From positions 1-20,344 of the IMG/VR virus record IMGVR_UViG_3300030099_000821: a DNA stretch of 20,344 nt; one strand, written 5' to 3'. This document shows positions 16,909-20,344 of the stretch, piece after piece. Under the pieces are notes generated by a model, which saw only the letters and a program-made list of their open reading frames with translations, was not told the DNA's origin and ran no database searches. The stretch's first letter is position 1; every line of letters begins with the position of its first letter. The DNA is from a virus. The position numbers were made by a program, and so were the translations under genes.

Positions 16909-17199
16909 CTACCATTTAACTTTGTTTGCCCAATATGCGGCAGACAATTTTCCCTTTGCTATGTTTCTACGGTGTCTCGCTTTAAAAGAACGTCTTTTTG
17001 CTTTCATTCGCGCTGACTCTCCCTTCTTAGGTTTCCCCGCAGTTTTAGCACCTTGCTGTCCAAATCGGATAGTCTTAATTTTATTTCCTACTTTGGCAAC
17101 GACAATGTGTGACTTTTTAGGGTGATTAGGTGTCCTTTTTGGTTTGTTATAACCTTTAACGCCTGCTCTTTTTAGTCTTGGATCTCTTTTTCTTGGCAT
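16909..17199 (-). CDS. Cationic small protein (RHRRNIAKGKLSAAYWANKVKW type)
   Basis: A 96-residue very basic protein. The N-terminus is MPRKRDPRLKRAGVKGYNKP; the middle has HIVVAKVGNKIKTIRFGQQG, a small beta pair; the end RSFKARHRRNIAKGK, then LSAAYWANKVKW, is a conserved terminus I remember from several marine phages, with no known function. A GGAG is found eight bases before ATG. Its first 44 bases overlap the end of the upstream cationic gene in another frame. With its beta pair and ordered C-terminus it is not just low-complexity sequence, so a folded nucleic-acid- or virion-binding protein is plausible. Confidence 0.72.
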   Translation of the reverse strand: MPRKRDPRLKRAGVKGYNKPKRTPNHPKKSHIVVAKVGNKIKTIRFGQQGAKTAGKPKKGESARMKAKRRSFKARHRRNIAKGKLSAAYWANKVKW

Positions 17200-17485
17200 T
17201 GTTTGCTCTCCGTAAACCTGCTTTTGCAGATTTAAAAATTGATGCGACTGTCTTCTTTCCCATCACTTTTGCTCGTTGTTCTCCAACTGTTAATATTTGT
17301 ATCTTTCTTGCATAAGACTTACGAACCCGTTTTACTTTTCGTACAGTTGCTCTGGCATCTTTTGCAGTAGCAAACTTGATTCTGACAGTATCCTTTGGGT
17401 TTTCGTCAGTATAAAGTCTTCTTCCAGACCCTTTAGGTTTTTTACCTGTTCCTTTTTTTGGATCTCTTCTTTTTCTTCTTACCAT
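17156..17485 (-). CDS. Cationic small protein, beta-alpha core
   Basis: A 109-residue protein with basic tails (MVRRKRRDPKKGTGKKPKGS at the start; KKKRSKTKKSRR at the end) around a core RRLYTDENPKDTVRIKFATA (21-40), DARATVRKVKRVRKSYARKI and QILTVGEQRAKVMGKKTVAS, probably strand-helix-strand-helix. Function unknown. No clear ribosome site; its ATG lies inside the upstream 50-residue gene, with 44 bp of overlap in another frame, so coupling is likely. The overlap encodes basic peptides in both frames because it is a purine-rich run. Confidence 0.68.
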   Translation of the reverse strand: MVRRKRRDPKKGTGKKPKGSGRRLYTDENPKDTVRIKFATAKDARATVRKVKRVRKSYARKIQILTVGEQRAKVMGKKTVASIFKSAKAGLRRANNAKKKRSKTKKSRR

Positions 17486-17594
17486 AGCCTGATGCGTATA
17501 TCGCCCTGCCTTGGCGTTCTGCAGCTTTCTTCGTTTTGTAAATCTTTCCAGACTTACCCCAACGATAACCGCCTTTAACGCGTCTTACGGGCAC
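17442..17594 (-). CDS. Cationic 50-residue protein (GGYRWGKSGK type), GTG start
   Basis: A 50-residue protein read from GTG at 17594 (frame start MPVRRVKGGYRWGKSGKIYK), with AGGAG five bases upstream. A longer frame open from ATG 17660 exists but its extra part (LMFVLLLKEKEEQQ) is unlike the rest and lies inside the upstream gene, so I prefer the GTG. The core GGYRWGKSGK.Y....AAERQG followed by RAIYASGYGKKKKKRSKK is a pattern I remember as widespread in small phage proteins of unknown function. The 5' end overlaps the previous gene by 20 bases. Confidence 0.75.
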   Translation of the reverse strand: MPVRRVKGGYRWGKSGKIYKTKKAAERQGRAIYASGYGKKKKKRSKKRNR

Positions 17595-17874
17595 GACGTC
17601 TCCTTGTTGTTCTTCTTTTTCTTTTAGTAAAAGTACGAACATTAGTTGGTTTACCACCAACTCCTTGTTTCCTTGCTCTCTTCCTACGAACGGCTGAAGC
17701 TATTTGTTTCTTTGACATTCGTCTAGCTTTTGCGGCTGGTACACATTTAGGGTAGCCACCTTTTCCTGCTTTCTTTCTTCCGCATTTGTGGTATCCGCCA
17801 CCTTTTTTAGGTCTTGAGATATCTACCCAGTTCTGCTTAAACCATTTACCTAATCCGCCTCTAGCCTTAGCCAC
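17575..17874 (-). CDS. Cationic small protein with Cys motif (WVDISRPKKGGG...YPKCVP), GTG start
   Basis: A 99-residue protein from GTG (17874-17872), GGGAG eight bases upstream. Residues about 5-50 form a compact motif: GGLGKWFKQNWVDISRPKKG (6-25), GGYHKCGRKKAGKGGYPKCV (26-45) with Cys31 and Cys44, then AAKARRMSKKQIASAVRRKR and KQGVGGKPTNV. I remember this motif in proteins of phages and bacteria that have only a DUF-type name. The last 25 residues are almost pure Arg/Lys/Thr (KRKRRTTRRRRARKTR), protamine-like. It overlaps its neighbours by 8 and 20 bases. Confidence 0.75.
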   Translation of the reverse strand: MAKARGGLGKWFKQNWVDISRPKKGGGYHKCGRKKAGKGGYPKCVPAAKARRMSKKQIASAVRRKRARKQGVGGKPTNVRTFTKRKRRTTRRRRARKTR

Positions 17875-18055
17875 GTCTATATCTCCCGCCTCGCTTCTTG
17901 TATTCTCTTACAAGCCAAGCGTTCGCATACGCTGAAGGATAAACTGCAAACTTTCTTCTAGCAGCAGCTTTGACTCTAGCATATAAAGCTTTATTAGTAG
18001 GAATATTTCTTTTTGCTTTAGTGCTTCTTCGAGCCTTCCTTCTTTTTCTAGCCAT
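17867..18055 (-). CDS. Cationic small protein (YPSAYANAWLVREYKKRGG type)
   Basis: A 62-residue protein. A basic N-terminus (MARKRRKARRSTKAKRN) precedes a likely folded part IPTNKALYARVKAAARRKFA (18-37), VYPSAYANAWLVREYKKRGG (38-57). This latter part is a conserved motif that I remember from phage and bacterial small proteins of unknown function. The ATG shares a base with the upstream stop (TAATG) and AGGTAGGAAG precedes it. Confidence 0.75.
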   Translation of the reverse strand: MARKRRKARRSTKAKRNIPTNKALYARVKAAARRKFAVYPSAYANAWLVREYKKRGGRYRRG

Positions 18056-18237
18056 TATCTTCCTACCTTTCTCTGTGCCGCTTTGTGCGCCTGGGTAAAT
18101 GTTTTACCTTGTAGCATTAGTCGTCTCATCATAGCCATATGCTTTCTAGTATGATGTTTAGCATGACGTCTCATAGTTGCTTGTTGACGTTTAGTAAGAG
18201 TTTTTCTTTTGGTTTTTCTTTTTCGTCTAACAGCCAT
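18055..18237 (-). CDS. Cationic His/Met-rich small protein
   Basis: A 60-residue protein with 22 Lys/Arg, 5 His and 6 Met: MAVRRKRKTKRKTLTKRQQA, TMRRHAKHHTRKHMAMMRRL, MLQGKTFTQAHKAAQRKVGR. The middle is probably a single amphipathic helix, with all His and Met on a limited stretch. Strong ribosome site (AGGAGG, 4 bases before the ATG). Function unknown; the composition suits DNA or RNA binding, and the His cluster could bind metal. Confidence 0.75.
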   Translation of the reverse strand: MAVRRKRKTKRKTLTKRQQATMRRHAKHHTRKHMAMMRRLMLQGKTFTQAHKAAQRKVGR

Positions 18238-19131: not shown

Positions 19132-19142
19132 GAACTATTTTT
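19125..19142 (-). repeat. 18-bp promoter repeat, copy 1 (covers cyclase stop codon)
   Basis: AAAAATAGTTCTTGACAT, identical to 14320-14337. Here the block includes the last Lys codon and TAG stop of the adenylate cyclase. Two exact copies with both -35 hexamers in register are unlikely by chance and suggest common origin or shared regulation. Confidence 0.85.
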
Positions 19143-20344
19143 CGATGGTATAAATTTTAACTGGTTCAGACTTTCCTTTCACCGTGACCTCGTCTAAGAA
19201 CTTATAGTCGAATCCGTCGACCATGCTGTACTCTGATATTATAAGATCGGTGTCATAGGTTTTACAAGATGATTCAAGTCTAGCAGCGAGATTAACAGCG
19301 TCGCCGAGAACACTATAATCAAAGCGACTATTACTACCCATATTACCGACAACACACGGTCCTGTATTGATTCCGACTCCAGTATTGATTTCAGGGCTTC
19401 CTTCATTCCTGAGAACATCATTTAACTCCTCTAAAGCTACTCTCATCTCGAGAGCGCACTCTGTGGCTTTTCTTTCTTGGTCTTCGACATCGAGAGGTGC
19501 GTTCCAAAAAGCCATGATGCAGTCTCCCATGTATTTATCTATTGTTCCCTCGTGTTTGAGTATGATATCAGTCTGATTAGTTAAAAAACGATTAACCAGT
19601 TCCACTAATTTTTGTGGGTCAGACTGATAAAATTCTGAAATCGGGGTGAAACCTCGGATATCAGAAAAAAGGAAAGTCATTCGTTTTGTCACCCCACCCA
19701 ATCTCAGTAATTTTGGATTATTTTGGAGTATTTCTACTTGGGCAGGGCTAACATACGTCCCAAATTGTTGTTTAATCTGTAATCTCAACAAATATTGAGT
19801 AATAAAACTATGAAATTGTACAATACTCCAGAATAAAAACAGGATAACTAGCGTGCCAGAAACGTCAAATAAGTAGGAAGACTCAACAAGCTTCCAAGAA
19901 GCGAAGCCAGTACCTCCTAATAGTGCTAAAATGACGGGTAGGCTGAGCCAAATGTTGTTAGCTACAGCCATAATTAGTACCATTCCGATAAGTATGATAC
20001 CAAGTTCTGCTAAAAAGCTCCAAGATGGCTGTGAAAGAGGCTCTCCGCTGATTAAAGTGTTAAGAACTGTTGCCTGAACTTCGTGAGGATACTTTGGACC
20101 GCCTGGAGTTGCTACAAGAGGAGCCACTCCCTCTGCAGTCACACCAAAAATCACAAATGGTGCCGGGATTGGCTCCTTCATGTATTCGGCTGCTGTCTGT
20201 CTGTAAAATTTTGTGTTCCAATTTGCAAATACAAGACCGTTTTCATTAGTAGTCAACTTACCATAAGCTGGTATTCGTACCCACTCGACTCCAGTCTCTT
20301 CAGTTTTTATCTGATAGCTTGGGTCTCCAACCGCAAGTCGTAAC
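19135..20344 (-). CDS. CHASE2-type membrane class III adenylate cyclase, 5' end cut by window
   Basis: About 402 residues visible; the frame stays open to the right edge, so the true start is outside (TTG at 20256 is internal). Order: the end of an extracytoplasmic CHASE2 sensor (GDPSYQIKTEETGVEWVRIP, FVIFGVTAEGVAP, TPGGPKYPHEVQA), three membrane helices at about 108-129, 130-149 and 161-180 of the visible part, a linker, then a class III cyclase domain. Catalytic marks: FSDIRGFT (metal Asp at 19662-19660), DKYMGDCIMAFW (second metal Asp; Lys that reads adenine), and VLGDAVNLAARLES (adenine-reading Asp, transition-state Asn and Arg). The Lys/Asp pair indicates ATP, hence cAMP. All key residues are present. 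C+G and codon use look higher and different from the phage genes, so it is likely a bacterial gene next to a prophage; a phage-carried cyclase is the alternative. Confidence 0.92.
   Translation of the reverse strand, partial: LRLAVGDPSYQIKTEETGVEWVRIPAYGKLTTNENGLVFANWNTKFYRQTAAEYMKEPIPAPFVIFGVTAEGVAPLVATPGGPKYPHEVQATVLNTLISGEPLSQPSWSFLAELGIILIGMVLIMAVANNIWLSLPVILALLGGTGFASWKLVESSYLFDVSGTLVILFLFWSIVQFHSFITQYLLRLQIKQQFGTYVSPAQVEILQNNPKLLRLGGVTKRMTFLFSDIRGFTPISEFYQSDPQKLVELVNRFLTNQTDIILKHEGTIDKYMGDCIMAFWNAPLDVEDQERKATECALEMRVALEELNDVLRNEGSPEINTGVGINTGPCVVGNMGSNSRFDYSVLGDAVNLAARLESSCKTYDTDLIISEYSMVDGFDYKFLDEVTVKGKSEPVKIYTIEK

Follow-up and report, generated by a model that had tools for sequence, protein, structure and literature searches.

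To the best of our knowledge, the closest described counterparts of the gene junctions reported here are the long phase-1 overlaps between same-strand bacterial genes (Sabath et al., 2008, PMC2542354; Fonseca et al., 2013, PMC3887535), and in both papers the phase bias of such overlaps is explained without selection for the overlap itself. Unlike in these bacterial cases, overlaps are found here repeatedly at phage genes for small basic proteins whose neighbours change, and the codons in the shared part look as if they were chosen so that the upstream protein end stays basic. Searches of the literature on pelagiphage overlaps, on C-terminal extensions that depend on gene order and on Lys-rich small proteins of marine phages returned no report. 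Small phage proteins are represented by phrog_7595, phrog_23735, phrog_31267 and DUF5872, which are matched by genes B, D, C and E of our locus, respectively; these matches concern the protein sequence alone, and overlaps and borrowed tails are absent from the models. The locus appears to offer a natural example, open to counting, of overlaps that may go beyond mere tolerance, as a neighbour would write the end of a protein and its synonymous codons appear tuned for that end.

The window is the whole stretch of DNA analysed, a 20,344-base virus record of a marine phage from IMG/VR, whose recognisable genes (terminase, portal, a fused protease-capsid gene and a weak tail-tube match) all lie on the minus strand. 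An array of small ORFs, most of them rich in Lys/Arg, occupies the region between approximately 18.7 and 16.9 kb, and four of its genes are called D, C, A, and B, in order of translation (Table 1). Gene B matches phrog_7595 over the whole profile (E 3.5e-42, profile 3-96 of 96); the A protein of the window gave no match in Pfam and PHROG searches at E 0.01. The mechanical ORF of gene C begins at TTG 17660. Many loci among the best 80 per query carry relatives of these four genes, and the cores of A and B are conserved in alignments that took in 40 of the 112 distinct A proteins and 38 of the 161 distinct B proteins. The sole paper that we found naming DUF5872, the domain matched by gene E, concerns an algal virus.

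Table 1. Array genes and gene overlaps in the window.
Feature	Position	Strand	Description
Gene F	18055..18237	-	60 aa basic ORF, phrog_31838; 1-nt overlap with E
Gene E	17867..18055	-	62 aa, DUF5872 match; 8-nt overlap with D, same phase
Gene D	17575..17874	-	99 aa basic protein, phrog_23735
D/C overlap	17575..17594	-	20 nt, same phase, provided C starts at GTG 17594
Gene C	17442..17594	-	50 aa, GYRWGKSGK..IYASGY plus basic tail, phrog_31267
C/A out-of-frame overlap	17442..17485	-	44 nt; C tail YGKKKKKRSKKRNR, A start MVRRKRRDPKKGTG
Gene A	17156..17485	-	basic, 109 aa, of the RKRRDP..GTGKKPKGSGRRLYTDENP family; helices predicted at the C-terminus
A/B out-of-frame overlap	17156..17199	-	44 nt; A tail NAKKKRSKTKKSRR, B start MPRKRDPRLKRAGV
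Gene B	16909..17199	-	96 aa basic protein, phrog_7595

An earlier note on this DNA had singled out two 44-nt out-of-frame overlaps coding for basic peptides in both frames; both exist, with the same coordinates, lengths and peptides, and the downstream genes A and B do start with RKR..DP. At the C/A junction, C ends in GYGKKKKKRSKKRNR before its stop and A begins with MVRRKRRDPKKGTGK, and at the A/B junction, A ends in NNAKKKRSKTKKSRR before its stop and B begins with MPRKRDPRLKRAGVK. At D/C, C/A, and A/B alike, the downstream start codon begins at base 2 of an upstream codon and the overlap length is 2 mod 3, an arrangement called phase 1 in the literature (PMC2542354), so that the downstream frame is +1 relative to the upstream frame. 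Both 44-nt overlaps are on the same strand, at least 7 nt long and of the NAT-G form (TAT-GGT and AAT-GCC) that defines long phase-1 overlaps.

We surmise that the tails of these proteins arise as follows. The junctions belong to an array of small Lys/Arg-rich genes that have different neighbours in different phages, and each downstream gene begins within the end of the preceding one, in phase 1 and at upstream codons of the form NAT-G. A ribosome ending the upstream gene would read the AAA/AGA-rich first codons of the downstream gene one frame off, and this reading would add a basic tail (e.g., KKKRSK..R) to the upstream protein before halting at the first in-frame stop, which is provided by GGT-AAA in A and by GTT-AAA in B. 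The upstream core would be retained, the tail would come from whichever gene follows, and the codon choice in the shared segment would keep the upstream tail basic. The overlaps, the exchanged neighbours, the source of the tails and the codon bias are seen in the sequences themselves; from these we infer that the upstream and the downstream protein are both produced, that the tail serves a purpose, perhaps in DNA or RNA binding, and that recombination has made the new neighbours.

For a comparison across genomes, the best 80 loci for each of the four queries (A, B, C, and D) were collected, giving 320 IMG/VR loci in addition to the window; the counts therefore lean to close relatives of the window, and a few of the loci may share a contig, since some contigs are represented more than once. 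A fixed rule set the starts (close to that of the query, with preference for ATG), and a reduction at 90% context identity left 375 of 554 junctions, from 231 loci including the window. Junctions between ORFs of at least 120 aa in the same loci, some of which are perhaps not genes, served as controls. Long overlaps are more frequent in the array families than expected by chance: overlaps of at least 20 nt occur at 98 of the 375 kept starts of the A-D families, compared with 38/372 control junctions when the control start closest to the upstream stop is used, which biases the controls towards short overlaps (Fisher p 1.5e-8), and with 49/367 under the first-ATG rule (p 1.3e-5), the control counts varying with the start rule. 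Such overlaps are thus a minority of the array junctions, and among the kept junctions the excess is found at A and B (78/221) and at C (17/54), not at D (3/100). Overlaps of at least 8 nt are present at 157 of the 375 kept junctions, and 154 of them have the phase seen in the window. As 70 of 74 control overlaps of at least 8 nt also have this phase, and such a bias of same-strand overlaps is known in bacteria (PMC2542354), we rejected the phase as a special signal.

The equal length of the two overlaps, to which the earlier note had attached meaning, looks like a coincidence. Given the observed length distributions, equality of the C/A and A/B lengths has a chance of 0.095, and it was seen in 3 of 11 loci (not dereplicated) having both C>A and A>B overlaps. 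The 44/44 loci are the window and its close kin L162 and L179 (terminase 84% and 81% identical), and the remaining loci show 47/38, 44/38, 41/59, and 65/50. From the start of the DP codons to the upstream stop there are 23 nt in A and 29 nt in B, and these distances and the two N-terminal lengths happen to sum to 44. Elsewhere, junctions range from no overlap to 65 nt among the best 80 loci per query, and the close relative L002/L082 keeps the A/B overlap at 44 nt, with no C gene found before A there; variation of this kind among relatives is what the note itself had named as pointing to coincidence.

Comparison of the loci indicated that the neighbours change and that the tails change with them. 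In the window, L162, L179, and L082, A receives the tail KKKRSKTKKSRR from the start of B. From this same start, C receives the tail RNGKKKR(S/P)KTKKSRR in L181, L185, and L206, where it immediately precedes B with an overlap of 44 nt, whereas in the window, L162, and L179 the tail of C is written by A. An 86-aa protein of L083, outside the A-D groups, also carries a near-copy tail written by B, KKKRSTTKKSRR. Altogether, the 78 overlaps of at least 18 nt at A or B starts among the kept junctions involve 14 upstream groups: C accounts for 27 of them, D for 11, A for 9 and a family of 38-86 aa without a name for 15, and the rest belong to ten smaller groups, some single members of which may not be genes. 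Different upstream proteins end alike because the RKRDP codons, (A)AG-AAA-AAG-AGA-TCC, give KKKRS when they are read one frame off. The upstream stop arises from GGT-AAA (Gly-Lys) in the conserved GTGK of A and from GTT-AAA (Val-Lys) in the AGVK of B. If the proposed mechanism is true, the C-terminal tails of small phage proteins may track gene order, not descent.

Other arrangements were also noted in a tabulation of D and A tails in which some stops are misplaced: in L260, L265, L299, and L301, A stands directly before D with a 14-nt overlap and obtains the tail HGKA from the D start MAK(P/R)KGGL, and in L258, L263, L299, and L305, the short basic tail of D is replaced by a long extension made of Lys/Gly repeats (MMKGGTVKKPGG-like).

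The choice between A-ending and G-ending codons in the shared segment is silent for the downstream protein; before another AAR/AGR codon it decides between Lys and Glu in the upstream protein, and neither choice creates a stop. The share of A-ending codons among AAA/AAG/AGA/AGG in codons 2-8 was compared, over 80% clusters, between genes with overlaps of at least 20 nt and those with less than 8 nt, a test which, like all tests in this work, was chosen after the data were seen. In A genes this share was 0.94 (17 clusters) with the overlap against 0.71 (22 clusters) without it (p 0.0006), and in B genes 0.90 (28 clusters) against 0.73 (64 clusters; p 0.007). Body codons showed no difference, with 0.77 and 0.72 in A (p 0.26) and 0.64 and 0.60 in B (p 0.74). 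When only genes with the RKR-D(P/S) start were considered, the contrast was 0.93 against 0.76 in A (14 and 17 clusters, p 0.014) and 0.95 against 0.59 in B (19 and 30 clusters, p 8e-6). Sorted by the upstream gene, the effect was observed for C>A, ?>A, C>B, and A>B (all 0.94-1.0, p 0.003-0.011); D>B was a marginal case (0.94, p 0.06), and no effect was seen for D>A (2 clusters, 0.75, p 1.0) or for B junctions with unassigned upstream genes (?>B, 0.73, p 0.91). Per 8 upstream-frame codons, the number of acidic residues was 0-0.07 in the five pairs with C, A, or D upstream, compared with 1.42 (A) and 0.89 (B) in genes without overlap.

To match openness, a further comparison was confined to genes in which no stop interrupts the upstream frame for at least 26 nt. 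In A, the upstream-frame K/R content was 0.55 with the overlap and 0.41 without it (p 0.0095), and the frame-0 content was 0.54 and 0.51; in B, the corresponding values were 0.51 and 0.27 (p 4e-6) and, for frame 0, 0.52 and 0.38 (0.57 and 0.48 in motif-bearing genes). Since the frame-0 content of B differs between the groups, part of the contrast in B is not synonymous. C and D gave 0.59 against 0.34 (p 0.11, 4 and 4 clusters) and 0.58 against 0.28 (p 0.03, 3 and 19 clusters), respectively. Long control overlaps did not have a raised K/R content (0.13, compared with 0.18 in short ones). The tail of C is basic both with the overlap (K/R 0.67, n=25) and without it (0.74, n=9), in a comparison that omits L210 (long overlap) and L220 (no long overlap), whose tails exceed 25 aa, four rows without a downstream ORF and one with a 17-nt overlap, and skips C genes lacking YASG[YF]. 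A basic tail in either case agrees with a requirement for a basic end, which may be provided by the following gene.

We consider it probable, given these data, that selection for dual-coded basic tails acts in a shuffled array of small phage genes. As proposed in the earlier note, such selection has the synonymous codon choice and the K/R content at matched openness in its favour; the D>A and ?>B junctions, without a codon effect, do not follow it, the minority share of long overlaps and their presence in one of ten isolate regions viewed also count against it, and related sequences may be non-independent even after clustering, so that relatedness may inflate the evidence. A reading to which we give a smaller yet substantial chance is that composition alone is at work, with purine-rich Lys/Arg starts, a tail that is a useless by-product and a codon contrast due to shared ancestry. 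T makes up 0.089 (A) and 0.156 (B) of the first 45 nt, compared with 0.249 in the controls, and few T mean few stops, so that an upstream gene losing its stop would run on for tens of bases; the upstream frame is often equally open in A and B genes that do not overlap, and the phase bias is general, as described above. However, exchanging AAA for AAG or AGA for AGG leaves the stops of the upstream frame unchanged, yet the A-ending forms are commoner where that frame is used, and K/R is higher at matched openness in both A and B. Besides, the median position of the first upstream-frame stop is 29 nt in controls and 23 nt in the array; control stops are therefore not earlier, and openness alone fails to explain the excess of overlaps.

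Translational coupling, in which a ribosome leaving the upstream gene helps the next start and the tail is incidental, strikes us as quite improbable as the main explanation. It would suit genes that lie tightly packed on one strand, and overlaps of 1 and 4 nt are common at other junctions of the A-D families; SD-like 4-mers precede A starts in 10/38 genes with the overlap and 12/47 without it, barely above the background of 0.21. In contrast, B genes have such 4-mers in 31/40 cases at overlaps of at least 18 nt and in 35/83 without (background 0.25), and a choice of Lys over Glu codons is not predicted by coupling. Stops lying 23-65 nt past the start suit simple coupling poorly, which we also count against it. 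If selection for the basic tails holds true, the junctions would allow a direct test of two-frame selection in a same-strand overlap, which compositional models of phase dispense with.

Within the RKR-DP start, neither D nor P varies among the 40 aligned A proteins, and D does not vary among the 38 aligned B proteins. Among all kept junctions, two basic residues followed by D(P/S) within the first 25 residues are found in 32/38 A genes with overlaps of at least 20 nt and in 38/47 with less than 8 nt; in A, the start is therefore independent of the overlap. The corresponding numbers for B genes are 28/40 and 39/83. More distant B genes often have no RKR-DP start (e.g., L003 and L018), it is also missing from L199 and L214 despite their 50-nt overlap, and the isolate HTVC033P has EP in place of DP. 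An N-terminal motif common to many families was considered and rejected, as [KR]2+D[PS] in residues 2-14 is present in just 5 of 3722 other ORFs of at least 45 aa (mechanical ORFs, many surely not genes), and it therefore looks particular to A and B.

The earlier note had also raised the idea of a duplicated junction, that is, of two 44-nt segments that are copies of each other, and this we regard as extremely unlikely. Both segments do contain AAGAAAAAG(AAG)AGATCCAA in the same phase. Nevertheless, the local alignment of the C/A and A/B junctions of the window scores 17, and 29% of cross-locus junction pairs (not dereplicated) score at least as high; comparison of the A and B profiles with hhalign revealed no relation (probability 2.7), and the DP-to-stop distances differ, as given above. 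The segments are thus no more alike than unrelated ones, and A and B show no homology by profile, whereas paralogous junctions would be expected to be alike and to have homologous flanking genes. A rather doubtful alternative is that the RKR-DP start, which resembles AAGAAAAAGAGATCCAA and has one and the same phase at the two junctions, serves as a portable joint, at which a crossover would swap, insert, or remove small basic genes with tail and start kept in frame; if true, protein tails in these phages would be a property of gene order.

Ten regions from isolate phages were viewed as well. In Pelagibacter phage HTVC033P, the annotated gp41 overlaps gp40, the homologue of A, by 23 nt and ends with YGKKKRA, and this is the only annotated overlap of at least 20 nt before A, B, or C in the ten regions. 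The overlap before B is 11 nt in P12053L, 1 nt in HMO-2011, and 4 nt in CRP-603, that before C is 1 nt in CRP-9 and CRP-902, and a gap precedes B, as annotated, in S-CBS2, CRP-1, CRP-345, and C72C1.

The model of gene A (mean pLDDT 77.8) has a low-confidence N-terminus and three C-terminal helices (residues 41-108), and that of gene B is poor (pLDDT 54.2). Sequence searches of the PDB gave no match below E 0.1, and the best PDB structure match to the A model has only E 1.3. In BFVD, its top matches are mostly uncharacterised viral proteins, several of them much larger, and A-like folds are seen in other phage proteins, e.g., a 373-aa protein of P-TIM68. Judging from their charge, we suggest that these proteins may bind nucleic acids. 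Gene B also matches a portion of phrog_220 (minor head protein and DNA pilot) weakly, at E 0.00085, which may hint that the B domain is also present in virion proteins. Finally, a partial minus-strand ORF at 19135-20343 adjoins the phage genes; it contains a guanylate/adenylate cyclase domain and matches CHASE2 weakly, and Pelagibacter phage HTVC008M (39.6% identity) is among the phage records nearest to it.
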